DNA from: Buxus sempervirens | Lineage: Eukaryota; Streptophyta; Magnoliopsida; Buxales; Buxaceae | Direction of reading: 5' to 3' | Length of the DNA stretch: 64,000 nucleotides | NCBI GenBank assembly: GCA_947561395.2 | Contig: OX387192.1 | Coordinates: 4,588,001 to 4,652,000 of the forward strand | Shown here: positions 26,774-50,156 of the stretch, piece after piece | Numbering within the stretch: the first letter of the stretch is position 1 | How the letters are laid out: each line of letters opens with the position of its first letter | Notes under the pieces: model-generated | What the model saw: the letters and a program-made list of their open reading frames with translations, nothing else | Database searches by the model: none | What the model was told of the DNA's origin: nothing | Translations under genes and position numbers: made by a program

Positions 26774-28733
26774 TGTAAAACCCTGATATTTTCCTATATG
26801 ATTTTATTGGGAAAATGAAACTAATAAGGTGTGTGTATGTAGGAATCTTGGTGGACGAGCGTTGTACCAAATCAAGTGTTTCAAAACTCGTCGAGTGGCA
26901 AAGTGTATATAAGGTAAGTATAAATACCTAGCATACTTAGACTCGTAGGGTTTCTTTCGTTCGCGCATACATTGTGTTGAAGGCGATTGCGGCTGGTGAT
27001 ATAGGGTTTTGGGAGAGAAGAAGAAGTCTGGATTTTGCTGTCGATCGAGGTGTTCCGTATTGAGGGTATCCAGATAAACTCTCGCAACCGAAGGAGTTTG
27101 AATGCCGATCGACTGTTGGTGTTGGTTTTGGTTGGTGTTTGCTCTATGAAGGGTTGCTGTTGCAGAGACTTGGAAGCGTATAAGGTGAGTAGCATCGTTT
27201 TGTTTGCCGTTGGTTTTGTTCTCTGTGTTTTACCGAAAGCATGTTCTTAGTCTGTGTTCTGTTGCATCTATTCGAGCATGAGTTTGGTTTGATGAGGGAA
27301 GAAGTCGTGAATTAAAAGAAGTTTTGATTAAGTCCGAAATAGGTCTAAGGGTTTTCTGGTAAGGGTAGAAACACATACGAGTGGTTACAGAGGTCAGAAA
27401 CATAGCCAGAGATGGAGATCTGGGATTAACAGAGAGTCGTTTATCAGAGGTAAGATCTGCCGACTTGGCGCCTACCTAGCGCCAAGTGAATTGAATCGGC
27501 GCAAGCTAAGTTCGGTTGTTAGTGCCGAGTTCGTGCCTAGCTCGCGCCAAGTGCGCGCGAGGCATTCCTTGTTCTCGCTTGTCTCGCGCTAGTCTCGCGC
27601 CTAGAGCTTTTAGTCTCGCGCTTGTCATGCGCTTAGCTCGGGCCTAGTGTAAAATCCCTAATTTTTATGCAAATAAAAATTATATTAGTTTAATATCTTA
27701 AATAAAATATAATTAGTGGTTTTTGCAGACAAGGGTGACCATATGGCCTTAATTTAAATCCGGGTGGGCCAGCTTGGAGACCTTGTATTTTAGCAAGGTA
27801 AGAAAAATTTTGTTGTGTTAATATGAGGGTTAAGTGGGTTGCTGATGTGGAATGTAATGTGGAAAAAAATTATACATGTAATAATTTGGTTGCTGATGTA
27901 GGAGGAATATGGTGGAGAGCATTGCACATGATCATGAATTAAAAGATGGCTTGAGCGGCAACTATATAAGGAAGTGAAAAACAGCCGCTGGGTTTTTCTT
28001 GCTTGAAACGAACTAAAGCTGGGAAGCTCTTAGAAAGGAGGAGGAGGGCCAGATCTGGGGATTGAATTCTGCTCAAGTGGAGCAGTGGTGGTGGTTGATT
28101 GTCGTTCAAGAGAAGTGGAACAAAAGGTTCCAGTAGTACCTGAGTTAGGCCGGCAAGAGTAAATTGGAGTAGATCTGATTCTTGTGTTCAGATCTAAATT
28201 CAACAAGCTAGAGGAAGAGGACGGCTAGGTGTGTTGAATTGGGAGTGGTGAATGCCAATTTGAGAAGGTTCAAATTGAGAAATTCGTATCTCAGGTAAGT
28301 GGCATTCCTCTTATGGTTTTTCGGATGTTTTTCTGTAAGTAGCATAAGTAAATTGATTACATGAGTAGCACCAATCGATCTGAGATGATTCTCTATAAAA
28401 CTGGAATAAAAAGTGTACGCCCAATTTCTGTTTTCTTCCATGAATCAGCACTTCAAATCTAATCTCTATTTCCATGGTAACCTAATCTCTGGAGTTCCAT
28501 TCATTTCTAGATCTAGTTTAAGGCATAATTAGATCACATTCATATTCAGATTTGGTGTTACAGATCTGGATATGGCATAAACTTGTATTCAGTAAGTGTG
28601 TTAGCATGGGAGACAGGTGGTAAATAGAATGGTTCTTTTTCTGTTGTGAATGGGATATAATTAGCATGAAATGGTGTGGTTCAGATTGTTTTTAATTGAG
28701 TCATTCTTCTGAAGTAAGCTTAGATGCATTGCA

Positions 28734-30782
28734 TGTAACGCCCCGAACCCGGGTCAGTGCAAACCGGCACCCAACCCGAACCCGGTTCGCTACTGTAACA
28801 AACCGAATTTAGTTCAATAACCAAATCCGAGGTGTTACTGGCCCATATCAAATACAACATCAATAACATACCAGACCAAAGAATTAAAATCCATTCTCTT
28901 TATTATACTATCAGAGTTGCGGAAACAAGTATGTGCGGAAGTGTAGTTCAAAATCCTCAACTGAACATAAAGCTTGACCATCAATCAGTAATATCAAAGT
29001 CTGGTAAAATAACTGGGTACTATCTCTCTCATCTCTCAATACATCAACCCAATGAATAATAATAGTCCAATCAAATGTACTAAGTCTATAGCATTCATCC
29101 ACCTCAGACAAGATCTGGATAATAGTAATCTTCCGGTGAATACTCAGCTATCTCTCCCTGGAAGTCTAAGAGATCCCCCTCTCGCGTATCAGCTGAAAAA
29201 ATGGAATAACAGTAGGGTGAGATACGAATATCCCAGTAGGTAACACATGCATGATTAAACAGTTAATATAAGTAAAGTAACAGTTCATGCACGATTAAGC
29301 AACATCGACTAATTAGGCTCGCATAATCATTTATACTATTCATGAACACAAAATAGTTTGATAAACAGTTCTAGAAATGAACTTCAGCAAGTTTAATATG
29401 AGAATACAATAGTCAAATCAGTAACATAGTTCACACATTGTCAGGATGTACTAAGCAGTCACATCCGACCAATATCTCAATCACATGCCTTCCGCATGTA
29501 TACAATAATAATACCGTGTGTTATGATTTCAGTGTCATTGTAGGACTCACAAAGATAGATAAACCTTTTGAGATGATTCTCAACCAATTGCTATACCATC
29601 GTGCGACTTAGGAGCGATGCTACTAATGATACTCAAGCCCCATGAAGTGCAGCTTAGACAAGAGCCGTAGTCACCGACTTATTGCACACGTATCCATCAG
29701 AGTTGGCATGTACCACCAGCATGCAGCACCAGAATCAATACATGGAGATAGTCGCTTATCCACATGTACAGGGAATCACCAGCGGCTCACCGGGGTGTCC
29801 CTCTAGACATAGGACCTTCCCAGACAAATTAACTTGCAAAGGAAGCGCGTCGCATATAGGAGTAACTCAACCCAAATGACATATCCCTCAGCTATCTAGC
29901 CACGACTATGGATCCATAACCAGCTATGCCCACTAGACTCCAAAATTCCCTAAAGTATCATATTTCTATAAGGGTTGGTGCCTAGCGGCATATAATGGTT
30001 ATATCTGTAAGTTTACTTCAATATTCGGTCATCTGAATTCTGAATTCTCTTTATAATGTCTTCTGATTTATAATGTCATTTAGAGATGTTTTGATAATCA
30101 AATAGTATTTAGGTTTTCCCAAAATCAGATTTCTCAATTACCTTTGAAACTTGGCAACTAATGTCCTAAATATCTCCCTAATTTATTTTTCTGTAAAACA
30201 AGGAAATAGATAATTTATTTTGGTCTTAAAACACCTTAATTAATCATTAAAATTGTCTAAAAATAGCTTAGAATTGAATTAGGTTCGAAATTATGAAACT
30301 CTGGAATTTCTGCTTAGAGCGCCTAGGATCGCTCAGGATCGCCCTGGCGGTCCCTAGTCAGCGATAGTTCAATTTTGAGCGCCCGCGGTCCGTCGTCTCG
30401 CGGTCTCCGGCGTCCTAAATTTTTATAACTAGCACCGAAGAGCGCCGATGATCGCCGAGTACAGTCGAGGTCGGCGGTCATACAAAATCGAGCAGAAACA
30501 GTTCTAAATCATGATTTTTCTCGTCTAAACTCATTCTAATGTATTTATAACATGCTTATCTAGTTAAATACACCAATACATATAATAGGAACATGCGTTT
30601 GCGATTAAACGAAGGAAAATCCAATTTCTGAAAACAAAACGATGTCACCTACCTCTTATTCGTGCGTTCCTCTTCTTCTCTTCTGAACAGCAACACTCCA
30701 ATCCTCTACAGTTGCAAAGCAAAACTCAGAGCAAGGTAACCTGGTCTTCCTCCCTTCTTCTTCTTCTTCTCTTCTCGGTCGT
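28734..30782 (-). repeat. 3' LTR of level-3 element, 5'-truncated
   Basis: Ends GGGGCGTTACA on the minus strand. It contains a donor-like AGAG|GTAGGTGAC (about 30650), a GC-rich block (30310-30480), and the acceptor-plus-ORF cassette (29103-29195) with one extra C that shifts the frame. Confidence 0.7.
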
Positions 30783-32062
30783 TCAAAACGGGGTTCGTCG
30801 CTTGCGGCTATTCAATACGAGCGACAATACAAGTGGCGCCTCTGGCTCCTCCTCACGAGCCTCCTCAACATGCCCCTTCTCAGGCTCATCCTCCTGAGCT
30901 GCTACTGCATACACTCTAGTCTGCTGAGGGCGTGGGGGTGGTGCCTGCTGCCTCTGAGGTGCCTGTTGCCTCTGCGGTGCCCGCTGCCTCTGATATCCCC
31001 CACGGCTCTGACCCTGAAATCCCGGTGGTGCTGGTAGTGCTGGCACAGGTCTAGAATACTGAAATCTCGAAGCCTCGGCCGACCGGGTATCCGTAGGTGC
31101 AGTAAGGGCTGGCTTAAGTAACTGGTAAGTATTCGGGTGTGGACAGTCAGCAACCCGATGCCCATGCTGGCCACATCTGAAGCACGCGCCTGGCGGTGAT
31201 ACGCATGGACCTGGGATGTGAAATCGGCCGCAACTGAAGCAACCTCCTGAGCCTCTCCTATCTCTCTGTCCATAGTCGATCCTCGGTCTCTTGTCCCTAT
31301 CCGGGACCCTCCGTGTCTCTGTGCCGCTTGGCTGTGCTCTAACTCTACTCTGCTCAGTCCCTGAATCTCTAATCTCTCTCTCAACCCGCAGAGCTCTCCC
31401 CACCAGATCAGAGTATCTGGTGCACATCAGCACCGAGACCATGCGCCTGATGTTTGCCCTCAGTCCTCTCTCAAAATGCTGGGTGCGCCTTGTAACGCCC
31501 CGGATCCGAGTCACAGGAAAAACCCGTAACTCGTCTCCAGAGGTTATTATAAAACACAGGATCGCAATATCAGAGTGAAGGAAAACATGAATACAACAAT
31601 AACTATATAACAGAGTACGCTAAAATAATCCCAAACGAAAATAAACTCACATGACCAAGTAACTACCCGCACGTATCGTCATCTCCAGGAGCAGCTGAAA
31701 ACAAAACAAAACAATACGGAATGAGATACGAATATCCCAGTGAGCAGCACATGCATGCACAAATACATTTATTTCAGTTCTAAAACATGCCACGGTTATA
31801 AACCATATACAATGATGATAACACACATATTCCGAATAATCCGACTAAACTTCAATAATCCAATTCATATCAGTGCGGAAAACCATCAGGTAAATCAAGA
31901 AATAACAATCCGTTTTCAATCCCGAAACCATCGATAAAATAATGATTAACTGACAACAACATAGCAATTAATCATAATTTCGTATCTCTAGATATAATTC
32001 TAGATATACCAATGTCATATAACACAAAGTCTTCTCATAACCATGCCCACGCCTCCAAATGT

Positions 32063-32488
32063 ATATCCGGCCTACTTAGGGTTTCGGATATTGAAATGAC
32101 TACGTCATCCAATGCAGGCCTACTCCCTGGGTTTCTGCATTGACAACCAGGCCTACTCAAGGTTTCTGGCTGCTCTACACCGGCGGGAAGAACAATACCC
32201 AATAATCGGTAAACAATATTCCATGAACCATAAATACCAACAACCAGCGAATAAAACATATCACGTCAAACAAAATCAAATACCAACATTGGTCAATGTC
32301 ATGACTATCGTTTAGTTGATAAATTAAACATGCCAAGTAGACACTCCACACCTCCATGTACACAGTTCCGGCCTACTCAAGGTTTCGGATACTCTGAAAT
32401 GACGGCCTACTCAGGGTTTCGTCATCCAATGCAAGCCTACTCCCCGGGTTTTTGCATTGACAACCAGGCCTACTCAGGGTTTCTGGCT
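32063..32488 (-). repeat. Two stem-loop arrays with a shared loop sequence
   Basis: Array 1 (32063-32171) and array 2 (32367-32488) repeat loop GCCTACTCAGGGTTT between stems ATATCCG/CGGATAT or TCCG/CGGA, ATGAC/GTCAT, AATGCA/TGCATT and ACCAG/CTGG. In array 1 the second hairpin has lost its loop (ATGAC-TAC-GTCAT). Confidence 0.8.
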
Positions 32489-33767
32489 GCTCTACACCGG
32501 TCGTGGCAACACACAAGGCCATGCAATTCCAACAACCAACAATAACATCACATTACTAAGCTTAAACATCTGGATCCAGGACAAGCTAGACCAAAACAGT
32601 AAACATCGTATAATCTCAATTTCAATATCAAAACAAAACCATTCATTCCACATCATGTAAGAACTCATCACAATTCATCACCTGTCCCTCTGGACCAAGC
32701 AGTACCTCAAGTACATTCAGTATTTTCTCATTTCCGTAACACATGCCATTTGGAAATAAAACTCAATTCATTCATACCAAGGAAATCCTTACAATACATT
32801 TAAAGTTTCCAAACAATTGAAACCAGTAATAAGTATAAAACTAGCAAATCAACCCAATGTATTTTCCATCATGTAAAACTGATATATATAGATCAACATG
32901 TTCAAGTGCATACCATAGGTCACTCAGGACCAACTTGCTCGCTCATGGTGTCCTCAAAGAAATTCTCAAATAATTTACCAGAATAGAATAAGATATGATT
33001 CTAAACCATCCACCGATATAAAACAATATTCAAGTAAATCATTCCTGAAGTGCACCGTGCATTCAAAGGTGAACTAGCATAATAGTGTAGATGTATTTCA
33101 GCAAAACAATATGGTTTCAAAACTGACTTTCAGAATAAAGCACATTATACAGAAGTGATTTCAGCATCCAAACTTCGATTAAACATAATCCAGCAAAACA
33201 GCTCCTAGATTCTAAATTTCGCTTTCATAATCCAAATCAATCAAATGAATGTCATAAAACCCTGGAAACACATTTTGGATGAGTGGAATAGTCTTAGGAT
33301 CCCCTATAAGGTCACCATACCAAAAAGCAATCAATTCTGAGACAAAAAGTTTCGGACCTCAAAATATTCTAAGTCTGGTTAAAAACGTTGACTTTTGGTA
33401 TATAATTTTTCTAGACAAATCTACAAGGAGTTTCGGGCTCAAATTTTGGTTGTAGTCTATTGGTGGGTAAACACATCTCCTAGAATTTTCTGGGCTCCTG
33501 AATCACTCATCTGGGTATTAAACCCAAACCGGGCATTTTGATTAAAACCGGGATTTAGGCATGAACTGGAAAGTTGACTTTTTATTGGCTGGGAATTAGA
33601 CCTTGGAAGTATTTTTAATGGTTCCAAATGGGAGGTAAAACCTTATTTACATGTAAAGACTTAAGTAAATGGAGCAATAAATACACAGGACATTTACTTA
33701 AATGTCTTTCATGTAATTAAGGGGCTATTTTCAACAAATTTTATAATTTGGTAAGTGTATTGGACTA

Positions 33768-34035
33768 TGCGCTCACCTCCTGAAGTGGGCGCGAGGTGAG
33801 CGCCGGTCGGCGGTAAGGAAACAGGCAAAAATGGACCCACCGCTCACTCGACGCTAGGTGAGCGTGAGCTGAGCGCGAGATGGGCGTGAGGTGGGCGCGA
33901 GATTCGCGCGAGATGGGCGCATAGTTTTCCGCTGAGCGCGAGCTGAGCGGCAGCCGGGCGTGAGCTCGGCGGTAGGTAGTGTTTAACGGGGCGCCTACCT
34001 CTGAGGTGAGCGCCGGTGAGCGCGAGGTGAGCGGA
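33768..34035 (-). repeat. GC-rich degenerate minisatellite in LTR
   Basis: Imperfect ~10-bp words GAGCGCGAG, GTGAGCG, GTGGGCG and GCTGAGCG, repeated many times on one strand. Counterparts lie at 37051-37315, 30310-30480 and 27466-27645. Confidence 0.75.
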
Positions 34036-35718
34036 TACCCCCTGTGATTTTCATTTCTCTGTTATTTCGAGATCTACATGACTGGCCGGTTTGTGAACCT
34101 CTGTAATTGTTCTACTACACTCCTAATACTCCCAGAAGACTTCCCAACCATATTTGGAATTAATCTAAACATTTTCATTTTCAAATATAAAATTAAATCC
34201 GAAGACTCTGTTCATGTAATTTCCCGAAAACCAGAAAAACCAGAAAACTCATACTACCACTTAATATATTTAACCCATGCATCACAATAATCTCGAAAGA
34301 AACATAAAACACAAAACCCCAGTAGTAAATCAGTGCTACTCACAAGTATACGCTTAATCCGAGAAACAAAAGCTTATTCCACAACCGGCCGAGCATGACT
34401 TCCGGCTGCGCGCGTGGATGCGAAGGTCGTCGAACTGATCCCCTGTTCGCGAGAGGAATAACCCACTGAAATCCGACTCCAATAAACTCCTAGTAGCTCT
34501 TACGGTTCTCATCTCTTCCCAGCGAAACCCTAATCGCCATTTCAGCCGCAATCGCCAAATCGCCCAGTTACAAAAATATGATGCGAGCATTCGAAAACCA
34601 AAACCCTAATTTCCCCTTTAGTATATATATACCTTCCACACGCTCCCATACGCATTGCCGCACGACAACCTTTTAAAAGCCTTGATCCTGTGCATGCTCG
34701 CCCACTGAAAACCCTACATTTTCCCGCATCCACTTAAGGTTATTCTCTTTGACAACTAATGACCACAAATCTCCAGCAATAAATAAATTTTGATTAAGCC
34801 TGCCCATAAATCCATGTGTTCATACTTTTGCATATATTTTATTTTATCTACTATTTTATATTGTTTATTATTATTATATTATTTTTTTTTCTACTCAAAA
34901 CTGGGGTCTTACACGCCTCTGCTCATCATGCACTATATGGTGAGCGAATCGAGAAAGAACCGCGAACCGAGCCTCATACTGTGCTACGGTCAAGGATCCC
35001 TGAGAGATATCCATGAACTCTCTCTCCTTCTGCAACCTCACCTCTGCCGAGAAATACTGCTCATAGAAGACCTGCCTGAACTGGTCCCAAGTCATCTGTA
35101 TCCCATCTACCGCCTGTCTCCATAATGACTGCCACCAGTGCTGAGCCTCGCCCTCTAGGGTGAAGGTAGCCAATCTCACCCTCCGGTCCTCTGGACAGTC
35201 CATCGTGTCAAACATGCGCTCCACTCTAGCCACCCAGCTCTTCGCCTCCAACGGATCTGGAACTCCATAAAATGGCGGGGCAGTCAGCTTCCTGAACTGA
35301 TCAATGTCCCTCAAGGACAACTCCTCTCTCACCCGCTGCTGATCCACTGCAGCTCCCTAACCATTTCGCTGGCCATTTCCATTCCCAGTTTGACTCATCA
35401 TTTCCTCCCTCTCCATCGCAAGGAGGTGGGCAAGTGAGCCAACTGAAGCCCAAATGTCCTCCACTGGTGGTGGGGCTCCCCGTGGTGGTGCAGGTGGCTG
35501 CTCCTGTGGTATATCCCCCTCTGGACAATCCACAGCCCTCGCACGTCTGCCTCTACCGGCCATGTATACCTGTAAGCACAAAATACCACATTAGTTAGGA
35601 ACTCTCTTCTAATCCTCATGGTTCTATCTAACGTACGCACAATATTTCCCCAGGGTTTTCTATGGTCATACTACCTAGGAACCTCAAATTTTCCAGCTTG
35701 AGTCTCTGATACCATCTC

Positions 35719-38095
35719 TGTAACGCCCCGGATCCGTGTTGTTCAATAAAGATATAACACGTCTCACGGAGGTTAGGCAATGATCGATAATTAAATATGA
35801 TCGCTGGATAATCATCTAACTATAACCTGTCAGAGTGCACAATTTGATTCATCCAAGAAATGTAACGTTTAGACTTAACTAGAAACGTATGGTTCAACCC
35901 CCAAATAGACTTTAATACACCTCAAATATTCAAAGTACTCAAATTCGGAACAAGATAACCTACAAGTCTAAGGAAGGTAATAGTAATCTTCCTCCCTATA
36001 AGCCTCAGCAGGATCTACCCCAGTAGTCGCCTCACCACGAGTATCTGAAAATCACAACAAAACAACAGAGTGAGATACGAATATCTCAGTGAGTAGCACA
36101 TGCATGCAGAAATAGTTAATCACAGTTCAAAGCTATGCATCGATAAACGTTCCGTACGATTAAACAACTCATATCAATTTCAAGTTCAAACCAAAACCCA
36201 TCTCATCGGTCAAATCACATCTCAGTTAAGTACGACAACACATCGATCGGTCAATGTCATGACTATCGTTTAGTTGATAAATTAAACATGCCAAGTAGAC
36301 ACTCCACACCTCCATGTACACAGTTTTGGCCTACTCAGGGTTTCGGAAACTCTGAAATGACGGCCTACTCAGGGTTTCGTCATCCAATGCAGGCCTACTC
36401 CCCGGGTTTCTACATTGACAACCAGGCCTACTCAGGGTTTCTGGCTGCTCTACACCGGTTGTGGCAACACACAAGGCCATGCAATTCCAACAACCAACAA
36501 ATAACATTACATTACTAAGCTTAGACTCTGGATCCAGGACAAGCTAGACGAAAACAGTAAAACATCGTATAATCTCGATTCCAACATTTAAAGTAAAAAC
36601 CATTCATTCCACATCATGTATATCTCATCATAGTTCATCACCTGTCCCTCTGGACCAAACAGTATCTCAATACTTTCAGTATTTCTCATTTCCACAAAAC
36701 CATGCCATTTGAATACAAACACAGTTATTTATAACAAGATAATACATTTCAGCATTTCCCAAAACAAATGAAACCAGAAGTCAATAATTTCTCAATTAGA
36801 ACAGTGTATAAGTTCGTGGAGAAAACGACTAAGAACTCCTAGAGTTTTGGTATCTAGCACAACATGTATAAAATAACCCACACTCATCCTTAGGAATCTT
36901 TAAGAATTTGCCACTAGCATTCTCCTAGGAATTAAATAAGAAATGTAGGTTCCAAGGTTACCAACAAGTGATTGGTGAAGTGATATAAACCCCAAGACAT
37001 CAAAAACCCCCCTTGGTTCAGTCGGAAATCAAATTCGGTAAGTTAAATTGGGTATGCGCTCACTTCCTGAAGTGAGCGCCAGTTGGCGGATAGAAAATAG
37101 GCGAAAATGGACTATGCACTCACTCGACGCTAAGTGAGCGCGAGCTGAGCGGGAGAAAGGCGCGAGAAGAGCGCGGGATAGGCGCGAGAAAAGCGCATCG
37201 GTTTTAAGTAGGCGCGAGCTGAGCGCCAGGTAGGCGCGAGCTCGGCGCCAGATCAAATTTCTTAGGCGCCTACTTCCCGAAGTGGGCGCAAGTGGGCGCC
37301 AAGTGGGCGGATACCCACTGCGAATTTCGAGTCTCTGTTATTTCGAGATCTCCAACTCTGGCTGGTTTGTTTAGGTCTGTTATTGCTCCATTACACTCCT
37401 AATGCTCCCAGAAGACTTCCCAACCCATTTTGGATTTAATCTAAACATCTTTTATTTCACATTAATTTTCAATCTTCGTTCGTAACTCGCGGTATTCCAG
37501 AAAAACCCAGAACTCACAATACGACCATGCATTTCAAAATACATCACGAATAAACTAAAACCTCGGTTTTAAATCAGTGCTACTCACCAGTATGCGCTTA
37601 ATCCCAGAACAACAGCTTCTTCCACAATCGGCCGAGCACGACTCCGGCTGCGCGCGAAGATGAAATGGTAGCCGAACAATACCTCTACTCGCGAGAGAGA
37701 TAACCTGCAGAAATCCGACTCCAATAAACTCCTAGCAGTCCTTCCGATTTTTGTTCTTCACGGGAATAACCCTAATCGCCATTTCAGCCGCAATCGCCAA
37801 ATCGCCCAGCTCTCCCCAGATAACGAGACTAACGAAAATTATTTCCGTAAGTATGATACGAGTATTCCTACAAACCCAGAACCCTACTTTCCCTTTTTGG
37901 TATCCTTACCTTGCGAGACATACGCCGCTTGATAACTTTCCAATTTCCTTGATCCTATGCGCGCTCGCCCACTGGAAACCCTACATGTTCCGGCCACTTA
38001 GGTTAACAAGCTCCCAAGCTATATTTTAATAATAATAATAATAATAAAACAAAAACAACAAAAAAATAAAACTCACCAAAAATCAGGGTCTTACA
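35719..38095 (-). repeat. 5' LTR of level-4 element (2377 bp)
   Basis: Minus-strand TGTAAGACCCTG...GGATCCGGGGCGTTACA, directly followed by GAGATGGTATCAGAGA, a tRNA-Met-type primer site, then the gag leader. It carries donor CTG|GTGAGTAGC (37588/37587), GC-rich block (37051-37315), stem-loop array (36325-36446) and acceptor-plus-ORF (35968-36047). Confidence 0.85.
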
Positions 38096-41000
38096 ATCAC
38101 CCCCTACAATAATAAAATATTTCCTTCAATCACAAATCTCAGTAATATTATTTACTAATTTAATTTATTATTTAAGGAAAATTCGGGGTTTTACATTGCA
38201 GTCCCTGTTCTTGGTTAGGCATGGGCGTATGGTACTTTAGGTTATGAACGTGGTGCAAAACAGAATTATTAAGGCAGGTTACTATCTCCATAACCAAATT
38301 GTATGGTATAGGGACTGTAGGACAGGTGTTTGAGTGGATTTGAATCCATTGGGAATTAAACACTTGCTGGTATGGCAGAATTCTGAAGTGAATATTTATG
38401 AGTGTCAACAGTTTGTGTTATAGTATGAGAGACTAAATTAAACTCAGCAATGGTCACATATATGAGGTGGAGGTTTAAGATTTAGGTGGAGGTAAATTAG
38501 GAGTGAAGTTAGATCAGTTTTAGGGAAACCTTTAATTGTACAAAGGATGGAAATGAAATAGGTTGCTGGCGCCAAGGTTGCTGATCATGGCCGAGTGGTG
38601 CCCAGCCCACCTTCAACTCTATAGGGCTGTGTTTTAGTCTAAGTGCAGTCCTATGTTGTCAAGTGTTGTTAAAAGTATTTTGGGAACCTCTTAGGAACTT
38701 ATTAAAGTGTTGTTGCTGAACTTTCAATGGAAAGAATATTCTATAAATGGGAATTTGGATTTGAGGTCAGTCAATAAAGAAAATCAATGTTGCTGTAGCT
38801 GAGTTCAGATGTAAGAAATATCATGAGCATTCAATGTAGTAGCACTGTTTAGTCTGATTTTGCATGATATAATTGAGGTTTGAGTTATTAAAATTGAATG
38901 CTAAATCTGAAACCTATTCTAGCATGGAATGGTGTTAATTTAGTAGAGAACATCTTTGTATGTTAATTCATTTCGGATACTTGTTATATTAAAAGTTTAA
39001 AGTAGAGCTTATGTTATTTAAATAAGTGTTTGTAATACAATAGAAGAAGTATTAGTTTACTTGCTGGGTTATTGGAGGAATGGATTATCTGCTGAGTGGT
39101 GCCTACCCCTCCAAAGGTTGGCACTAGCTCACTTATATTAATAATTGTAATTGTTAATAACATACAGTTAGGGGTTTTGCCAATGGGATTTAATTAGGGG
39201 TTATATGAAGGCATTGTATGCTTTGAAGAGCTCTGTTGGAAGCTCATGTGAAGCCATAAACTCTGAAAACAAAAGGATTATAGGGACACCAGGTGTTGCT
39301 GTGGTTGGCGCCCAGCTCACCAGCATCACTATTGTGATGGTTTAAGTACTCTTGTAGGGGTTCATTTGAAGATGTAATGAGAGGTTATTAAGGGGTTGGG
39401 TAAGTAGAAAATACTGGTATTGGGAGCCTTCCGGGTGTCAAGTAAAGAAATCAAAAAAACTGCATTAGTAATTAGTTGAGTGTTTCTTTTTGAGATCTGA
39501 AATTTGTTCAGCTCAATACCAGTTTGCTTCCAACTATTTTGAGTGCTGTTAGAAATTCACCTTGGGAATTATTAGAGGTTTTGATTAGTGGTTAAAGGAA
39601 AGGTTTGTTGTTATGAGAAGAAAGACTATAAAATAGGGATCAGACCTGAATTTTAATTCATGACATTGGGAAAATCTGGTTGAGTGTTGTTGAGTGGCGC
39701 CCACCCTCTCAGCATACTATATTTTTAATTCATTTCAAGTTCTTGTTAAACCTATTTTGGAAGTTAATTTAGGATTACTTTGGGAGCTATCTTAGATGTA
39801 ATTTGAAGTACCCGGAGGGTATTGTATTAGATACTTTATATCCCAAATCTGGTTGGGTGCTGAGTGGCGCCTATCTCCACAAGTGTTGGTGTCAACTCTC
39901 CTATTTTAGTTTGTGTGGTTATTATTAATTCCAATTAAGGGATTATCTCTTAGGTAACCTAAATATATGTAATTGAATGTATCTTGGAGGAAATGTAGGT
40001 GCTTGGAAACTGGGGGTATACTAGTATGGTAAGTATTGAAACCTGAAATGTGGCTAGTTAGGTGGTTTGAGTAACTTTAAGGTGCTGAAATCTTCTCCAG
40101 CACATACAACTTTTGCATGGCAAACTAAACTTGAGAGAGTAAGTAAAGAACTATTTAAGGATAAATAAATGGGATTTGAGTGAACCTTAGGAGGCTGAAG
40201 TAAGTGTACAAAAAGGAGTTATAAAAGAATACAAAGATGGCATTGAGGATTAAAGAATACAAAGGGTTAAAGGAAGGCATTGAGGATTAAAGTAGAAAAT
40301 GAGTGTTTGAGTATAAAGTGTCTATCGAAAAGCTACTGTTTAGGCATAAAACCAGATTTGTTTGTCAAATTTCAGTAGGAGATGTAAATTCTAATTTTTC
40401 ACATTTGAATGCTGGTTTAACCGAGACTTAACAGTTTTTACAAACTTTTGACTAAAAAGGAGATTTTATGAAATATTTGGATAAGGAACTTAAGAACAAA
40501 TTATTTTGGGATAAATCTAATTATTTGGAATTTTCATATACTCGAAGGATAGTTTTTAGTGTTTTTGATGAGAATATGTTATTTTACTTCCGTGTATCTC
40601 GGAATGGGTTTGGAACCTCTCCATGTACCTTGGATTGAGGATTTCTTTTCTCCATGTATCTTGGGGGTGATGATGGTTGGTTGGTACTATTGGAACTGGT
40701 TTGATTATTTTGATTGTTGGTTTTGAGTTTAGATGGCATAGCTTGGTGTGGATCCACATTTGTCAAGTTAAGAGCTAGATAGTGGAATAGATTGATCTTT
40801 GCTAGTTGTAATACCTTGTTCGCGCACGCGTTTCCATCGTGAAGCTCGATGAGGCATTCTTTGTATCTGGTTGGCTGCGGCTATGTTAGGATAGTTCATG
40901 CCAACCCATTTTTGTATCTGAATGGGTTCACCCGCAATAAGTCGATGTTTGTGTAGCTCGGCTTCGCTCATAAGCCAGGAGGTGGCATAGTGAGCTTGGT

Positions 41001-42562
41001 TTTACACTAGTTAAAGGCAATTTATTTCATGAGTCCAACATTGACTTATTCCTAATGAGTGCACATTTTGGCTTTCGATTATTCAGTGATTGTAAACATA
41101 TTTCTTTTATCAGTATATGTTGGTTTCGGATTATTCGGCTTAACCGGTAAGGTTGGATGTTGTTATTAATGCATAGTTATTTAAGGAGCATGTTTGAGAA
41201 TTGTTAACAAATGTTTTTATGCATGCATGTGCTATTTGCTGAGATATTCGTATCTCATTCCGGTTGTTTTTGTTTTGTTTTCAGATCCTGGTGAGGACAA
41301 TATCCGTGGGGTTGAGCCAGTTGCAGATTACCCCGAGTATAGGGGAGAGGATTACTTTGTCGAGTGACATTTGACAGTTATCCTTAGTTTTCGATTTCCT
41401 TTGATATAGTGAGTAAGCTTTGAATTGTAATTCTTCCTTTAATTGCGAATTGGTGATTGGGTATTAGTGACGAACTCTATTATTGTTGTTGATGTTAATA
41501 AAATGAAATTTCATGTCTTTTACATTCTGATATAGATCCTGCGGTTGTATTATCTAACACCTCGGGTACGAGTTACGGTTCCGATACGTAACCCGGATCC
41601 GGGGCGTTACACCTAGTACCTTTGCAGTAAGCGTGACATGTAGTTTCTAAGTAATGACTTACCGCCGACCTCGCGCCTAGCGCTAGAGGTCAGCGCAAGC
41701 CCCTATCCTTTGCCGAAATGTGATATTTGACAAAAATCAAGTTCATTGGACACTTGAGGGTTTAAGCACTTACCTATTGACTTGTTTAGAACCTTAGAAA
41801 TATTATATTCGGGCAAAACAAATTCGAGAGTATTGAATCACATTCTGAGTTTTTCTACAAATTGTCGAAAGGTGAGTTTAAGGAATTTAGGTAGGATGTT
41901 GCTATTCATGATCCTATAAGTAAATGAGCCAGTTGGTTATATATATATTTTATCTGTTTCTTGCTATTGAAATTGTATAAATCTGTTGTTCAATATCCAA
42001 TGACTGAAAAGTATTGAAAAGTTTTGTGTGAGTAAGAGGAATTTTATTGCATGAGTGTGTTGTGGAGAGGTTGGGTAAACTTCTAAATTTGTGTGAGTTG
42101 ATGTTTTGGTTGGAACAACTTGTGATGAATGTATTGGGATACACAAGATTGAAATAAATGTGGGTTTACTGTTTTGCAGATGCGGAGTTTTATGTGGTTA
42201 TTAATCGGTTTTGGGTTTAGCTTCCTTTGGATCCATGTTAAGCTTAGTAATGTGATGGTATTTGTTTGTTGGTATAATTGCATGGCCTTGTGTGTTGCCA
42301 CGACCAATGTAGAGCAGCCAGATACCCTGAGTAGGCCTGATTGTCAGTGCCGATACCCGGAGTAGGCCGGCATTGGATGACGATACCCTGAGTAGGCCGT
42401 CATTTCAAAGTGTCCGATACCCTGAGTAGGCCGGAACTGTGTACATGAAGGTGTGGAGTTTCTACTTGGCATGTGAATTAATCAATTTAGGCAATATGCA
42501 TGACATTGACCTTTTATTTTGATTTATCGGTAATCTGGTTGTTTAATTGTTGTTTTGTTTTT

Positions 42563-42642
42563 CAGATCTTCGGGGTGAGGCGCCTACTGGGGTAGATCCG
42601 ACTGACACCTATAGGGAGGAGGATTATTACTACAATCCTTAG
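42563..42642 (+). other. Conserved splice acceptor plus short ORF in LTR
   Basis: TTTTTCAG is followed by two bases and then an open frame of 24 codons ending TYREEDYYYNP and a stop. Matching cassettes in the same phase are at 41282-41367 (ending EYRGEDYFVE), 35968-36047 minus (AYREEDYYYLP) and 48976-49061 minus (EYRPEDYYHLL). Confidence 0.6.
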
Positions 42643-42896
42643 ACTAGTAGGTTATTTTAGATTTAAACTCTGTTTCAATTGATTTTGTGGGAAATGTAAT
42701 AAGGTAGTAAATTGGAACCATTTGATTCTATTTGAAGATTTTATAGACTTCTTAGATAAGAATTTAATTATGCACTTTGATATGGTATAAATTGTGTGAT
42801 TATCCAGCGATCACTTTTATTTGGATCCTTACCTAACCCTCTGTGAGACGTGGTATATCTTTAATGAACAACACAGATCTGGGGCGTTACAGCAAT

Positions 42897-43340
42897 TGGG
42901 GGGTACTTCAGAAGGCACAACCACATCTGGTGGCACATCCCCGCCTGCGTCCTTGCAGGTGGTAGGTTCCTCGGTCAGTGTGCCACCACAGTTTGAAGAT
43001 GTATGAGTCGGTGGCGGCACACCAACTCCTACATCACCAGAGGACATAGGCTCCTCTCTCAGACCTCCCCATGCATGGAGGCATCTCTCGATGTATGCAT
43101 CGAGAGAGGTATAGCATCGCTACATCTCAGCGGCAGCCACCACCATCCTGTGCATCTAGACCTGCAGGCCCTGAATCAACAGCAGCAATGAAAGATTATA
43201 AAGTGAAACAATTACAACTTCAGACCAATCTGTTATTATAGCAACTTTTTACCTCGTACACATGAGACGGCAATCCGCCTCTATCCCTCCAACCAGAGCG
43301 TGTATCAACAAAACTGTCAACCATAGCAATCAATTATATC
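42897..43340 (-). pseudogene. Host-gene-like fragment, 5' piece, two exon-like blocks
   Basis: Minus strand: block 43340-43258 (VDSFVDTRSGWRDRGGLPSH) ends at a GAG|GTAAAA donor. After an acceptor TTGATTCAG (about 43173-43181) the second block reads GLQV, MHRMVVAAAEM, CYTSLDAYIERCLHAWGGLR, then a Pro/Val/Thr-rich stretch to SEVPPNC at the LTR duplication. Two in-frame stops show decay. The product is unrecognised. Confidence 0.4.
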
Positions 43341-43740
43341 TGCACATGTATTCAATTTCATATGCATTGAATAAACCCACAATAACAGAATAAATTTCCT
43401 TGTATGACTACGTGAGCAATGCACGAAGTGAAGCATAAGGCGTTGATAACAAACAAAAAAATCCGAACTGATGATAACAACGATAAGCGCTTAATCTGCT
43501 ACTTAGAACAACACACAAAATAACACTGGTAAATATGGGATCTTACTAGTATGACGATTATATACAATCATAATGTTATTATTTCCCACACAATAATCAT
43601 CGCAATATTAGAATAGGAATAAACAAAGTTCATTGCATACCAAGACTTATACTAAGATTGCTAAAAATAATCTAAACTCCCTTTGGACATGAGTCAGAAT
43701 TTGCGTCTTAAGGTTCAGATGCTTCAACCACCTTACGTTC

Positions 43741-43947
43741 TTATGTTGGAGGCGATTCAAAGTCCGAGTAGTCGGAATCTTTTTCCGAAACAAACCTACT
43801 TTCATTAGATATATCCGACTCTGATTGGAAAATGGCATCTCCATAAATATCTCGTACCTTACATGAACATGATTCAATGTCCTCACACTTGTCTTTAGCA
43901 TTTCTAAACATTTCCAATGCCCTTTGCCTTCTTAAACGGCTGAGCAT
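43741..43947 (-). pseudogene. Short acidic fragment, unrecognised
   Basis: Minus-strand frame with VRDIYGDAIFQSESD and SEKDSDYSDFESPP. The acidic, serine-rich character recalls the N-terminal region of MuDR-type proteins, but no domain can be confirmed. It lies inside the MULE, upstream (minus sense) of the gene-like blocks. Confidence 0.25.
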
Positions 43948-44426
43948 GTGCCGAGTTATCTTTTTATTAACTTCAACGCATGTTAAACTCCGACATTGTT
44001 AATATGCTTAATATCCAAGGACCTTCGTCTTGGAATTGTTATTTTACGATAACGGAGCCTGCTTTGTAGTAGTTTAGCATGATGATAGTGATGGGTCCAC
44101 TGCTTTCGAAGATGCAAAGAGATCCCTTGTTGTGTGGGTATATCGTGCAGACTACAGCAACATCGAGTAAAGCAACTCCCACGACTAGCCATACTCTATA
44201 AGAATTTAACATGTATTTCTTCCATGTTAGTTGGAGATAGAAGCATGCTTTCTGTCTTCTAAACAAATCACAAGAATGTATGAACATGATAGACTCAATG
44301 GAGTTGTAATACCAACAAGAGAGGAACATTACACAAATTTTAAGAACCCCAAAACCATCCTTTGTCTTCTATATCTCCAAATTAGATTCTCCATTGCGGA
44401 TAACTAATTTAAAATGAGGAATTGAT

Positions 44427-45110
44427 TTGTTTAACACTCCCGAAAGTGGAACCACCTTTGAGGAAGGATCAGGCGAAGATAAAAAATACCATTTTGTGGC
44501 ATGGAAGCATATGTGCAAGCCTAAAGAGGAAGGGGGACTTGGATTGAGACCGCTTGTAGTGTTCAATAAAGGCCCTTCTCCAAAAGTGGATCTAGAGGTT
44601 TGGGTGTGCGCCGAACATCTTATGGAGAAAACTAGTTTTTCAGACATACGGAGTTTCCCCCAATGGCCGGTTTCCTAGCCCCTCAAAACATTCATTTTGG
44701 TGTAGTCTTTGCAGACCTATAGCGAATTTGTCCATGTCAGTGGAGAAATTGCGCCAATTTAAAATGGGTAATGGGAGAATAATAAGGTTTTGGGATGACG
44801 TTTGGTGTGAGGAGTCTAAGTTAAAGGAGTCCTATCCATTGTGCTATAATGTGTGCAAGAACAAAGAAGCTTTGCTATGTGTTTATGTATCAATATCGGA
44901 GGTGGGAACTGTATAGAACATTATTCTCAAAAGGGATTTGGCAGATTGGGAATTTAGCAACAATGAGAGTCTACTAAAGGAATTGTATAGTAAGGAGGTG
45001 GGACAGGAGGAAGATATCAGAATCTGGTTAGGTAAGAAGTCTTCCACCATGTTTATGCACAACCGAGATGCTCCCATCAGCCTAACAGACTTGAATGCTA
45101 TTAGTTTTAA
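44427..45110 (+). pseudogene. LINE ORF2 C-terminal fragment (zf-RVT region) inside the MULE
   Basis: Plus-strand frames KKYHFVAWKHMCKPKEEGGL and GLRPLVVFNK (44427-44560), then MGNGRIIRFWDDVWC (44760) and DLADWEFSNNESLLKELYS (44938), the usual order after the LINE reverse transcriptase. Frames shift between blocks. The fragment is cut off exactly where the right TIR starts, as expected of sequence captured between TIRs. Confidence 0.75.
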
Positions 45111-46857
45111 AACATTTCCTATCTTCATATTCGTTGGACCTCTCTTCTCTTCTCTTTAGGAAACTTTAACACTACGGGCATAGATGTGTTGCCCTAACTC
45201 TCTAATAACCATATGTGCTTCCAAAAGAAAGCTTTCATACCTTTTCATCTAATAATTTTTTAATACAATGGCCCTATGTTTCTTTCGTCTCCTCATGTCT
45301 TTAAAAATGGGGTACATTGAGTTTAATGTATTTATAAAAGCACTCCATACTTCAACCAAGAAAAACTGAAGAACAATCCTATGATTGTTACTTCGGGTCA
45401 AAACAAAGTCATACTCTCAACTCATTTAAAGAGTGAATTCTCATAGTTCACCTATAAATAAATTTCAAGACAAACGGAAAACATAGAAATATATTAGAAA
45501 TCATTTCAAAAAACTACTTTATACAACCAAAGATAGGTGTTTTTATGTTTTAGATTTCATAAATTACATCAAGAAAATCATGGTAGAAAGACGAACTGAT
45601 AAAAGGAAATTCATCCGCATATTTCATTCTTCTATGATACTACAACTAATGTTGCTTTTCCCTACAAAAGGAACTTTTCGCATCCTAGATTAGAAATAAC
45701 ATGTCTATATCAATGTTATTTGATATCTAAATTGACACTGGTTGGCGCTACAAACAGTAACTGTTCTCATTCAAGGTGACAAGTGTTTGGAATAACGAAA
45801 GGGAATCGTTATTCACAAAAGAGCAAGTGTGCATAAAAATGCAATGAATTGCCAATTGAAAGCATGGCATAATGCCATCAACATCTACACTATAGATGAT
45901 TATAGATAAAAAGGATATCAAAACGCAATTGAAGAAAATAACGACATTCCGATTATCAAATTTAGGGCAAAAACATAATGAAGTATCTCCAAATCAAACA
46001 TCTCTTCTCACAAAACGCAAAAAATGAGTAGTATAATGCAGTCGCATACCGATTAACAATTTAGGGCAAATTTTTAGGAACCAATAAGGGGATATAGCTT
46101 ACCCGATTTGGAGGGGGTGGCTGCTGAGGAGGTTGGATTCTGCTTCGAATGGAGTCGCAGGAGACTTCGTGAAGGGCGTCTACAAGAAAATGCAAGGCAC
46201 ACTTGCGTTGGTTAGGGCAAAGATTTAGAAACCGAAATGGGGATGAAGCTTACCCGATTTGGTAGGAGCGGGTGGTCGCTGATGAGGTTGCTGAACGGAA
46301 TGGGGGAGAGGGCTTCGAATGGGGTTGCTGGAGACTTCTCTCAAACAGGAAGAACAAACAGACAAGGGGGTTGATGAATGGGTGTCGCCGGAGAGCCTAT
46401 TAAGGGCGTACGAATGTGGTTGCCGGAGAGGAAGGCACGCTTGCGTTAGTTAGGGCAAAAATTTATAAACCGAAATGGGGATGAAGCTTACCCGATTTGG
46501 AGGGAGTGGGTGGTTGCCGACGAGGTTGTCGAACAGAATGGGGGAGAGGGCTTCGAATGGGGTTGCCGGAGACTTCTCTCAAACGGGAAGAACAAATAGA
46601 CAAGGGGGCCGATTGACGAATGGGTGTCGCTAGAGAGCCTATCAAGGGTGCACGAAGAGGGCGTACGAATTTCTACGACCAGAGAGGGTGGTCGCAGGAG
46701 AGGGTGGCCGGAGGATCCAAATAAGTTTGAAAGGAAGAAAAAGCGGTCTGAAGCTCTTGGCGCGAAGAGAACGAAGGGTGAAAGCAAGAGGAGAGAGAGG
46801 GACCTTTAGTTTGCTGACGTGGGGGGCAAAATGGGGACAGAACAACCATTGATGACA

Positions 46858-46911
<54 letters not shown>

Positions 46912-47023
46912 CGGGTCCAATTTTGCAAATAATCTTTAAAAGTTGCTTTTTCTGCCATTAAGAAATTTCATGGCCTGTTTTTGGCAATACCGGGGAAAAG
47001 GTGCCCCATTTGATAATTTTCCC
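45111..47023 (-). repeat. MULE right terminal inverted repeat (1.9 kb)
   Basis: Longer than the left because of a ~0.25-kb internal tandem duplication (about 46190-46670, each copy with CTCTCAAAC.GGAAGAACAAA and GAGGGCTTCGAATGGGGTTG) and a 51-base C run. Confidence 0.88.
46860..46910 (+). repeat. 51-base poly-C tract
   Basis: An unbroken run of 51 C at the place where the left TIR has only GGGGGG (on its strand, near 24980). Either a real homopolymer expansion or an assembly filler. Confidence 0.95.
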
Positions 47024-47032
47024 TACAAAAAT

Positions 47033-47234
47033 GGTGGGACCCGTTCTTGTACTTCATTTTCATCTATTTTATTCTTTTCATGTAGCTTTCTTGCGTTTTT
47101 GGGTTGGGATGATCCACAATGCTTCTTACAATTTTCTCTACTCCCTTGTTTAGTAACTACACTTACAACAGTGTGTTTGTTTAGGGGAGTTAATTTTAGG
47201 CTTAGTTTGTTTAAACCAAGTTTAACTAGAGCTG
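47033..47234 (+). repeat. Direct repeat, copy B, right part
   Basis: Continues copy B after the MULE (ATGGTGGGACCCGTTCTTGT through TTTAACTAGA). Homologous to 23000-23176. Confidence 0.85.
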
Positions 47235-47509
47235 GAAAATTTTGAACTGACCCATCAACCCACCCAAACCCAATCTGAATAAATGGGTTTGGGTTCAGCA
47301 ATTTATTGCTTGGGATGGGTTTGAGTTGAAGTTTTTCTAACCCATCTAGATACGGGTCAACCCACACCCAACCCATCAACATGTGGGGTAATCGATAATG
47401 TATCAATTCTTTTTTTTCTTGTTTATTTTTTATTTTTGCGTAAGCATTATATACAATTAATGAAACTAATACGTAAATAGAAACCTAAAAAAAATATTAG
47501 TAAGTTAGT
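47235..47509. other. Intergenic, ACCCAACCC-rich stretch
   Basis: 47245-47395 repeats AACCCA and TGGGTTTGGG words on both strands, like the interior of some hAT-type MITEs, but no clean ends were found. Confidence 0.35.
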
Positions 47510-48640
47510 TTTGAGATGCCCAATTAGCCTTGTGAGTCAGACCCTAATTAAATCAATCTTAGACGCTTGAAATTGACTTTAATAAATATCATTGAGTGGT
47601 TTCTACAATAGGGTTGTGATTAGCGCGTTTAAATTACAATTGAACTGACCTCCATATATTGAATTTTTATTAATTTTTTATTTTCAAATATTTACAATTT
47701 ACTCCTTTGAGGTTTCCACCACTTGCACTTCCCCCATTAAGGTTTTTGAAATACCAGTTTACCACATTGAGATTTTTTTTTATGTAACAATATCCCCATT
47801 TAGAGGTTTGACTCTTAAAATCATGAGTAAATGTCAATTAACAAATTTGCTCTCTATTATTTGTATTTCAAAAGTAAAAAGCTTTATTTAATGTGCATAT
47901 AACGGATCTTACACAAGATTCTTAAACTCATCAAGGCATCCAAGCCTAGTTTTGTAAACTGAAATTATTAGTTGTATAAAAATTTTATTTACGAAAAAGG
48001 GAAAGATAATAAAGAAGTAGGAATAGGAGTTGAGTAGTCTAGCTCGAGTTATAGTACTATCCATATGTAGCTATACATATGTAGGTATGTATGATCCTTA
48101 ACCCATATCAGGACAATTAAATAGGAGGTTAGTTATAAGGGGATTTGTGAGTCATACCAATTGTTGAAGGGGTATTATTAGGGAAACAATTGTCAAGCCA
48201 GAATCTTTGACTTTCTTTAGTGAAATAGTATATATCAAAGTGTATGATTAGGTGACCCAATGTTAGATCTTGTCATGCCCACTTAGCCTAGTGAGTCAAG
48301 CTCGGATTAAATTGATCTTAGGCGTTTAAAATATCCTCCAATGGTGCCTAAGGTATCGCTGTTACTAGGGTGTTTAAATTAAAATTTAATTAGCTTCTAT
48401 ATATTGAATTTTGTTAAACTTTAATTTTTAATTTAAATTAAAAATTATGATTCATGAAAATCAAGGTTATTGGATTTAAATTAAAACTTAATTTTTTTAA
48501 TTAAAAATTAAACTAACCTCTATATGTTAAATTTTAAATTTTAATTTGTAGCGGATCTTATGCTTGAGTTTTTATCCGAGCCTAGTTTTGCAAACATTAA
48601 ATTTTCAATTATATAACAAACTTAGCTGCAGCGCCCTGGA
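47510..48640 (+). repeat. Diverged direct repeat pair
   Basis: 47510-48000 and 48270-48640 share, in order, TTAGCC..GTGAGTCA, AATTAAAT..ATCTTAG.CG, TATATATTGAATTTT, CGGATCTTA and AGCCTAGTTTTG. Much diverged; may be LTRs or an ancient duplication. Nothing coding between. Confidence 0.5.
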
Positions 48641-49600
48641 ATCGAGTTTGTCCATACGGGCTCAAAAAAACCTAATTGATACAATTAAGGGCAATTACAA
48701 TGTAATCATTAGAGTGCATAATAGCATGAGAATTGAAGTATGGAATAAAAGTTTCCATTTAACAAAATGTCACCTGTATTATAATAATCTCAAAGATGAT
48801 ACTTGTGTGTACAAGAGACAATTAAATGCTCACCATCTCTATCTCTCATATGTATAATTATATACAAAGGTCATAGTCCAAAAAAAATCTCCCAAGTGTT
48901 TAGGTAAAAAAAGAATCAATATATATATCCCATTTACAATTTCCAAAAATTAAGTACAACATCACAAGGAGAATCCTACAATAAATGGTAGTAGTCCTCT
49001 GGCCTATATTCAGGCTCTCCCTCAATCTCTGCCCTTGTATGTAGTTCACTAGGAGGATCTGAAAGCAAAACCGGTAAAACAAAACACACATGGGACTAAA
49101 GTCCCAGTAAGCAGCAAACATGCATGACTAGAAGCAATTTATACAATTTTATAACATCATGATAATATTATATCAATTATAAAATACCAAATGCAAGTAA
49201 AAGAATCTCAATCAGATAACATATGAAATCAGTTCAATATAACACTATCATACACTATAAGTATGTCTTGGTAGGACTCGTGGATTAATATGTCTCTAAA
49301 TTAGATTAATGACCACTGTCCATTTGCCACCTATATGACTTATAGAGAGAAGCATAGTTAGGGACAACTTAGCAAGCGGAGTATCCACGTATGAGCTGAC
49401 AAGTGACAACCAAACCAATAATCAAGGTCAAGTGGAATTCCCCATCCATTGCTGAATGAATAATATGAATCAATAACATCTTGCTGATACCCCAAGGCGG
49501 GTGGTTGCCGCAACACCTCTATGCCCCAAAGATTGAATTATGAATCTAGTCCATGAATCGCAGAGAGCTCGTAATCAGTTGTATAAAGGTCTTATCTAGG
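48632..49600 (-). mobile_element. Diverged LTR relic related to the nested LTRs
   Basis: Minus-strand features match the nested family: an end like CCAGGGCGCTGCA (compare CGGGGCGTTACA), a TGCATG..TTTGCTGCTTACTGGGA motif, an acceptor TTTGCTTTCAG and the short-ORF cassette (48976-49058). Boundaries and duplication are not resolvable. Confidence 0.55.
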
Positions 49601-49920
49601 TACCAAGAAGAAGAAAAGTAACAAAAAAGGGCAAAAAAAAAAAGGTTTGAATGGGCTCTTAGTTGCAGACTCGGCGGTTCGTCTCGGACGTGTTACAGTT
49701 TTGGTGACTTGGAATATTTCATTTTTTACGGGACAAAATATCCAAGGTTGGGTATACCCGTGAATTTTGCGGATACTATACGGATTAAATAGTAATTTTA
49801 TTGACAACTCTCATGATTCATGAAATCTCCTGTACAGGGGCAGAAAGAATCGGAACGGGAGAAAGAATCGGAGAGATTCCCGAACAAGTCGCAGCAAAAG
49901 AAAGAATTAGAAGCAGAGAA

Positions 49921-49930
49921 CTATAAATAC
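49921..49930 (+). promoter_or_regulatory. Probable TATA box of the MYB/SANT-like gene
   Basis: CTATAAATAC about 230 bp upstream of the ATG at 50157, followed by a pyrimidine-rich leader. Confidence 0.5.
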
Positions 49931-50156
49931 TTTCCGTTCGAGTGTTCCGTAAAGCCTTTTTTCTTCTTTAATTAATCCATGCTCTCTCGCTATCCGTATC
50001 CGTTTCTCCCTTTATTTTTTCATATTATAACGATTACGGTGGGTGTCCTGGTGGGATTAGAGCTCCCTTCAGTCTTCAATTTTTCTTCTTCTTTTTGTGT
50101 TTGATTTTCTTGGCGGGAACAGAAGGTGAATTCTGAGAAGTGGGGTTTGGTTATTA

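Follow-up and report, generated by a model that had tools for sequence, protein, structure and literature searches.

The long terminal repeats (LTRs) of a group of nested retrotransposons in Buxus sempervirens very probably contain an intron with a 5′ splice site that base pairing to the end of the same intron can conceal within an RNA duplex. The six repeats in question, here called A to F, lie in a window of 64,000 nucleotides (contig OX387192.1 of assembly GCA_947561395.2, positions 4,588,001 to 4,652,000 of the forward strand), and all coordinates below are counted from the first base of this window. They appear to be Tekay/Del-like Ty3-gypsy LTRs; because no pol was found among the open reading frames (ORFs) of the window, this label rests on gag, the primer-binding site (PBS), and the LTR ends. 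The presence of the intron is supported by donor-like sites at matching places, complete pairing of the first eleven intron bases with a site near the intron end, duplex pairs that have changed on both sides, and one repeat, D, that lacks both the pairing site and a match. A fuller reading, for which the chances seem to us evenly balanced, holds that the intron is spliceosomal, that the duplex hides its 5′ splice site, and that the following exon, exon 2, would serve as a terminal coding exon.

Donor-like sites and predicted introns

A donor-like site of the form GT-R-R-GT occupies the matching place in all five LTRs that retain that part (A, B, C, D, and F). These sites stand 1.4–3.5 kb upstream of the acceptor, with implied introns of 1412–3523 bp. 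Intron bases +1 to +11 are as follows.

LTR A, 34333..34343, minus strand: GTGAGTAGCAC, preceded by ACTT
LTR B, 37577..37587, minus strand: GTGAGTAGCAC, preceded by ACTG
LTR C, 28295..28305, plus strand: GTAAGTGGCAT, preceded by CAG; beyond the nested insertion; fits the pairing pattern derived from the C 3′ element
LTR D, 27185..27195, plus strand: GTGAGTAGCAT, preceded by AAG; partner site missing
LTR F, 30642..30652, minus strand: GTAGGTGACAT, preceded by AGAG

The A and B donors lie about 570–610 bp into the LTR, and a TATA box is found 288, 332, and 279 bp upstream of the donor in A, C, and D, respectively. Scored with a generic donor matrix, the donors reach 8.7 in C, 6.1 in D, 5.4 in F, and 4.5 in B. 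LTR E has no matching donor in 49110-53000. The predicted introns hold many ATGs (84 in C, 78 in A, 42 in B, 35 in F, and 29 in D), and exon 1 of A, B, C, and D holds one to four.

Pairing of the donor with the 3′ end of the intron

The motif CATGCATG, which resembles a plant RY motif, stands ahead of the acceptor in A, B, C, E, and F, followed by a variable stretch and then a hairpin. This variable stretch is complementary to the donor.

LTR A, minus strand: CATGCATG at 31750-31757; 3′ intron element GTGCTGCTCAC at 31740..31750, 11/11 pairing with the donor; hairpin TGGGATA-TTCG-TATCTCA at 31722..31739
LTR B, minus strand: CATGCATG at 36099-36106; 3′ intron element GTGCTACTCAC at 36089..36099, 11/11 pairing; hairpin TGAGATA-TTCG-TATCTCA at 36071..36088
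LTR C, plus strand: CATGCATG at 41222-41229; 3′ intron element GTGCTATTTGC at 41229..41239, 11/11 pairing; hairpin TGAGATA-TTCG-TATCTCA at 41240..41257
LTR F, minus strand: CATGCATG at 29246-29253; 3′ intron element GTGTTACCTAC at 29236..29246, 11/11 pairing; hairpin TGGGATA-TTCG-TATCTCA at 29218..29235 (the minimum-energy fold of the last 110 nt of F picked another structure)
LTR E, minus strand: CATGCATG at the matching place; 3′ intron element TTTGCTGCTTAC at 49107..49118; hairpin TGGGAC-TTTA-GTCCCA at 49091..49106, with different letters and the same fold

The hairpins of A, B, C, and F conform to the consensus TGRGATA-TTCG-TATCTCA. When all intron 11-mers past the first 30 bases were compared with bases +1 to +11, with G-U pairs allowed, exactly one 11/11 match emerged in each of the A, B, C, and F introns, located at −56, −55, −56, and −54 from the acceptor end, respectively. 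The chance expectation of such a match anywhere in these introns, estimated from base shuffles, is 0.115, 0.035, 0.22, and 0.075. The D intron has no 11/11 match (0.105 expected), and the 3′ part of D lacks this stretch. In a pseudo-donor control, the last 100 nt offered an 11/11 partner to 30 of 3004 positions in A, 14 of 1936 in B, 30 of 1076 in C, 4 of 1491 in F, and 5 of 864 in D, counts (0.3–2.8% of 5′ positions) that include the real donors and their overlapping neighbours.

Across the four paired sequences, 3 of the 11 duplex pairs have changed on both sides and no cell is unpaired; sliding the partner by one to three columns leaves 24–57% paired. The covariation score was reached in 2 of 500 shuffles and the number of both-side-changed pairs in 18 of 500. 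McCaskill probabilities computed over the full intron are 0.98–0.99 for every duplex pair in A; in F they are 0.72 for nine pairs and 0.63 and 0.34 for the last two. A preceding sequence-only reading of this DNA had predicted a conserved splice acceptor inside the LTRs, and that prediction gains strength from the donor-like site in every LTR keeping that part and from a covarying duplex that begins at the first intron base. In LTR C, the end of exon 1 (28260-28294, GAGAAATTCGTATCTCAG) resembles the hairpin near the intron end, and pairing could thus extend into the exon in this copy.

Acceptor and exon 2 open reading frame

A pyrimidine-rich tract ending in CAG was found in all six LTRs by direct reading and by script. 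After CAG and two further bases, 24–28 codons stay open in five of the six (B, C, D, E, and F), and the stop comes two to five codons after a block of the form Y..EDYY or EDYF.

LTR B exon 2 ORF, 35968..36044, minus strand: CAG, two bases, then TRGEATTGVDPAEAYREEDYYYLP and a stop; 24 codons
LTR D exon 2 ORF, 42566..42642, plus strand: ends in TDTYREEDYYYNP and a stop; 24 codons
LTR C exon 2 ORF, 41285..41367, plus strand: ends in PEYRGEDYFVE and a stop; 26 codons
LTR E exon 2 ORF, 48976..49058, minus strand: ends in PEYRPEDYYHLL and a stop; 26 codons
LTR F exon 2 ORF, 29104..29192, minus strand: ends in AEYSPEDYYYPDLV and a stop; 28 codons
LTR A exon 2 in the same phase, 31663..31694, minus strand: short, nine codons (APGDDDTCG, then a stop), without the tail

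The earlier claim of a fixed-phase short ORF with an EDYYY-type tail after the acceptor is thereby borne out in B, C, D, and E. For F, described then as a level-3 copy with one extra C, the peptide tail stands and the frame is corrected: CAG is followed by CT GAT ACG CGA and remains open in the shared phase to 29104, with no frameshift needed. The sixth repeat, solo LTR A, had not been listed; it has the acceptor and no tail, which places the tail in five of six LTRs. B and D form one family, 81% identical over the ORF, so that about four lineages carry the tail. For distant LTR pairs (C or F against A or B, C against E, and F against C), the main alignable stretch spans the acceptor. A, B, and D also share other LTR parts in alignment.

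A peptide-tail search of proteins gave no candidate sharing three words with the 60-residue ORF of LTR C, and the five tail peptides gave 198 candidates, none at E ≤ 10. In a control search with gag, the 269 candidates included a single plant protein, from Magnolia sinica, which suggests that few plant proteins were in reach, so that the tail-search negatives say little. The conserved intron end had no matches in two viral-contig scans; in another, made for gag, a pattern matched in one stretch and no match was confirmed. One scan of prokaryote contigs gave no matches, and Rfam gave none at the gathering score.

Substitution pattern of exon 2

Coding tests were run on an ungapped nine-codon block of exon 2 in five copies (10 pairs); a protein-guided test (p 0) was dropped because its alignment had been fitted to the peptide, and the ungapped test was used instead. 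Codon-aware similarity exceeds that of within-codon shuffles in the peptide frame (p 0.001, 20,000 shuffles), as against p values of 0.40 and 0.69 in the other frames. The frame-0 value stays at or below 0.012 when any one copy is left out. Restricting the set to four lineages gives 0.004 when B is the copy kept, and 0 of 10,000 shuffles when D takes its place. Over the 25 codons of B versus D, the same test gives p 0.010 in frame and 0.63 and 0.85 in the other two. Differences at codon positions 1, 2, and 3 of the nine-codon block number 20, 28, and 47 (column-permutation p 0.024). By the NG86 method, nonsynonymous (dN) and synonymous (dS) divergence between B and D over 25 codons are 0.153 and 0.471. 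Within the nine-codon block, dS is computable for only 2 of 10 pairs: B-C (dN 0.33, dS 1.92) and, more weakly, B-F (dN 0.41, dS 0.59).

The p values are somewhat flattering because the block was found by its similarity, and the signal comes from about four lineages and a motif chosen by eye. The frame-specific similarity and the B-D divergence nevertheless lend weak to moderate support to the suggestion, made in the sequence-only reading, that this ORF codes: exon 2 appears to change like code, on few lineages and in a motif found by likeness.

The nested locus

The locus is a nest of LTRs in which D holds C, C holds an element with LTRs B and F (the B/F element), and that element holds A. The LTRs are long (A 3423, B 2477, C 4497, and D 2149 bp).

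Solo LTR D, 5′ part, 26774..27647, plus strand: begins TGTAAAACCC; flanks GCAAC and GCAAT, one mismatch; resumes at 41612 past the nested insertions
Solo LTR D, 3′ part, 41612..42891, plus strand: ends GGGGCGTTACA; CCTAG at 27643-27647 and 41612-41616; its initial five bases repeat the target site of the LTR C insertion
Solo LTR C, 5′ part, 27648..28733, plus strand: begins TGTAAAATCCC; target-site copy CCTAG; resumes at 38201
Solo LTR C, 3′ part, 38201..41611, plus strand: ends CGGGGCGTTACA; TTGCA at 28729-28733 and 38196-38200 as target-site copies of the B/F insertion
B/F nested element, 28734-38195, minus strand: target copies TTGCA on either side; LTR B at the 5′ end and truncated LTR F at the 3′ end
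LTR B, 5′ LTR of the B/F element, 35719..38195, minus strand: TGTAAAACCCC ... CGGGGCGTTACA, then the PBS
PBS TGGTATCAGAG, 35704-35714, minus strand: adjoins LTR B
LTR F, truncated 3′ LTR of the B/F element, 28734..30820, minus strand: TGTAACGCCCCG end at 28734; 5′ limit approximate, by eye
Solo LTR A, inside gag of the B/F element, 31491..34913, minus strand: target-site copy CGCCT on either side
LTR E, separate fragment, from about 48630, minus strand
gag of the B/F element, 5′ piece, 34914..35563, minus strand: Retrotrans_gag match; one in-frame stop; broken by solo LTR A
gag of the B/F element, 3′ piece, 30783..31490, minus strand: CCHC zinc knuckle

Domain matches assign this gag to the Ty3-gypsy type (Retrotrans_gag 6e-17, Ty3_capsid 1.1e-9, zf-CCHC 2.4e-5), and the PBS is presumably linked to initiator Met tRNA. 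LTRs B and F, although ends of a single insertion (28734-38195), can be aligned over about 150 bp only, at 67%. The gag passes straight into the middle of F exon 1 with pol missing, which suggests a hybrid or recombined element. An acceptor-like site at 35570 (minus strand; CTAACTAATG...TTTTGTGCTTACAG), present as a single copy, lies six bases ahead of the gag ATG and downstream of the PBS; if it were used with an LTR donor, the PBS would also be removed from the message.

Three further features of the window were recorded. An inverted repeat of 1.3 kb, 96% complementary (25181-26487 and 45108-46414), flanks the whole nest. About 50 consecutive C at 46861-46910 are possibly an assembly artefact. 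Another gypsy-type element at 4664-9656 has short terminal direct repeats, each some 390 bp long, and its C-terminal ORF (8773-9324) looks chromodomain-like by eye.

Proposed mechanism and alternatives

In LTR retrotransposons, a single RNA has to supply message and genome alike. The mechanism proposed here concerns how plant gypsy elements divide the two uses: the TATA box would direct transcription of an exon 1 of about 250–300 nt, an intron of 1.4–3.5 kb, and an exon 2 that starts from the reported CAG. The first eleven bases of the intron, among them the intronic positions read by U1 small nuclear RNA, would pair with the fixed site about 55 nt before the intron end, with the small hairpin between this site and the polypyrimidine tract. 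In a fraction of the molecules, the duplex would keep the 5′ splice site hidden; these would stay unspliced and provide a genome whose LTR is complete. Molecules on which U1 wins would be spliced, shed the 29–84 ATGs of the intron, and make a better mRNA. Exon 2, as a terminal coding exon supplied by the 3′ LTR, would be joined to an upstream gag/pol exon and add a short acidic, tyrosine-rich C-terminus. AATAAA follows exon 2 in C and F, which fits a last exon. That the duplex acts as a built-in genome/messenger switch and that the acceptor of the 3′ LTR adds a C-terminus, making the LTR a coding exon, is a tentative proposal, held with distinctly less confidence than the combination of intron, hidden splice site, and terminal coding exon set out at the start.

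Several observations weigh against this mechanism. The LTR A donor scores below 4, and a stronger donor-like GT exists elsewhere in the LTR for B (6.8), D (8.6), and F (6.5). Among the three introns folded in full (A, B, and F), B has a duplex probability of 0.01 because of competing pairing. The energy of the 55-nt donor region is only weakly better than with shuffled 3′ regions (p 0.049 in A, 0.095 in B, 0.009 in C, and 0.022 in F). The B and C donors pair slightly better with the A and B elements, respectively, than with their own, so that specificity is clearest in F. The covariation alignment has four rows, and the number of further pair types was reached by 435 of 500 shuffles. Removal of the intron would still leave 3–10 ATGs between the acceptor and either gag or the end of the LTR. 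A search of LTRs A, B, C, D, and F for an ATG-led exon that could feed exon 2 gave none, and in the gag pieces even the best donor is weak (score 3.4). LTR A has no EDYYY tail despite the same acceptor, and no AATAAA or listed variant follows its exon 2.

The role of exon 2 admits two other explanations. It may be non-coding, with its purine-rich, tyrosine-codon-like block acting as an exonic splicing enhancer or other RNA signal and the peptide likeness a by-product, a serious contender that we place somewhat short of an even chance. Such a role would suit the GAR-rich block, the small number of lineages, the B-F divergence in the block (dN against dS), and LTR A, which lacks the block yet retains donor, duplex, and acceptor. 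It would also suit a reading frame that cannot be reached from any LTR start codon through a donor scoring 4 or more: none of the donors at that level in A, B, C (both parts), D, and F lies in phase 1 behind an ATG. What a non-coding exon leaves unexplained is the frame-specific similarity and the excess of third-position changes (47 of 95 pairwise differences). The other explanation, in which the 5′ LTR encodes a small leader peptide, had been offered in the sequence-only reading and agrees with the position of exon 2 upstream of gag and with its terminal stop. It is largely refuted already and has very little probability left, because the peptide frame of the joined exons is stopped in exon 1 with no later ATG in A, B, C, and F, D has a stop codon immediately ahead of its donor, and the search for donors scoring 4 or more gave none behind an ATG in the needed phase. 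Lowering the donor threshold to 0.5, at least three codons from an ATG, yields 20 weak sites (best 3.1) that are unalike between LTRs by eye. An intron-retained reading from a conserved ATG was rejected because its frames differ between copies (hand count). Exon 2 was also searched for a second donor at its end, and candidates near the stop score 2.8 or less. If exon 2 is coding, its partner exon would probably lie in gag or pol and the exon would be used from the 3′ LTR; a C-terminal tail spliced onto gag or pol appears the likelier coding route than a leader peptide.

For the duplex, the main rival to hiding is the looping-out of a long intron, in which intron and duplex are real, the duplex promotes splicing by bringing the intron ends together until U1 opens it, and exon 2 is an ordinary leader. 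The length of the introns, the complete pairing in all four testable LTRs, and a hairpin that would shorten the distance from duplex to acceptor are all consistent with this explanation. We nonetheless consider it rather unlikely, as the duplex covers the U1 site itself, not its flanks, and such overlap usually inhibits splicing. A further possibility is that the 3′ element has been conserved as a 5′ splice site for antisense transcription and matches the sense donor only incidentally. On the other strand the element does begin with GT in A, B, E, and F; it begins with GC in C, the match extends to +11, past the donor consensus, and three pairs have changed on both sides, which together make an antisense role quite improbable.

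Comparison with known systems

Where papers are cited below, the comparison draws on passages of these open-licence papers. The general kind, a spliced LTR retrotransposon that separates message and genome, is known. Ogre is a plant gypsy element whose intron is removed from only part of its transcripts (PMC6317226). The Buxus LTRs would likewise belong to a spliced plant gypsy element, with splicing here predicted from sequence only; they differ in that the Ogre intron lies in the internal region, whereas here the predicted donor and acceptor both fall within the LTR and the 5′ splice site is paired. EVADE and BARE1 (Ty1-copia) use short-GAG splicing, which provides a GAG mRNA alongside full-length genomic RNA (PMC12786077, PMC7730604). 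These belong to the copia superfamily and carry the intron in the internal region, and the passages on them describe no LTR exon. In Cer1/CERV of C. elegans, a spliced mRNA joins gag-frame exons to a 3′ exon, and unspliced genomic RNA must be kept and exported (PMC10309623). The Cer1 passages do not describe a paired 5′ splice site.

At the major splice donor of HIV-1, a hairpin holds the 5′ splice site in RNA structure and balances spliced and unspliced RNA. That hairpin is local, whereas here the partner is 1.4–3.5 kb away in the same intron. Retrosat2, placed in the Tekay/Del lineage by a table in PMC6317226, has LTRs over 3.2 kb and an extra ORF (ORF0) upstream of gag-pol (PMC3485330). The lineage and the long LTRs are shared; ORF0, however, is a separate ORF, found by its authors in grasses only, and not an LTR exon, and the word “intron” is absent from the text of that paper (PMC3485330). 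A search of the open-licence literature, at the level of passages and abstracts, gave no description of a gypsy LTR that contains an intron or a coding exon, nor of a 5′ splice site that pairs with the end of the intron it belongs to. The predicted location of the intron, the pairing of its splice site, and a coding exon in the LTR look new.

If this reading is true, several diverged families would share a simple switch in the form of a duplex-buried splice site in the LTR, and LTR-derived donors and acceptors may enter host transcripts. The pattern of donor and 3′ element offers a sequence signature that could be searched for in other plant LTRs. Plant LTR elements are described in passages of a 2025 review as generally without introns, with Ogre and EVADE as notable exceptions (PMC12786077), and an LTR-internal intron would add a further case to these intron-bearing elements.

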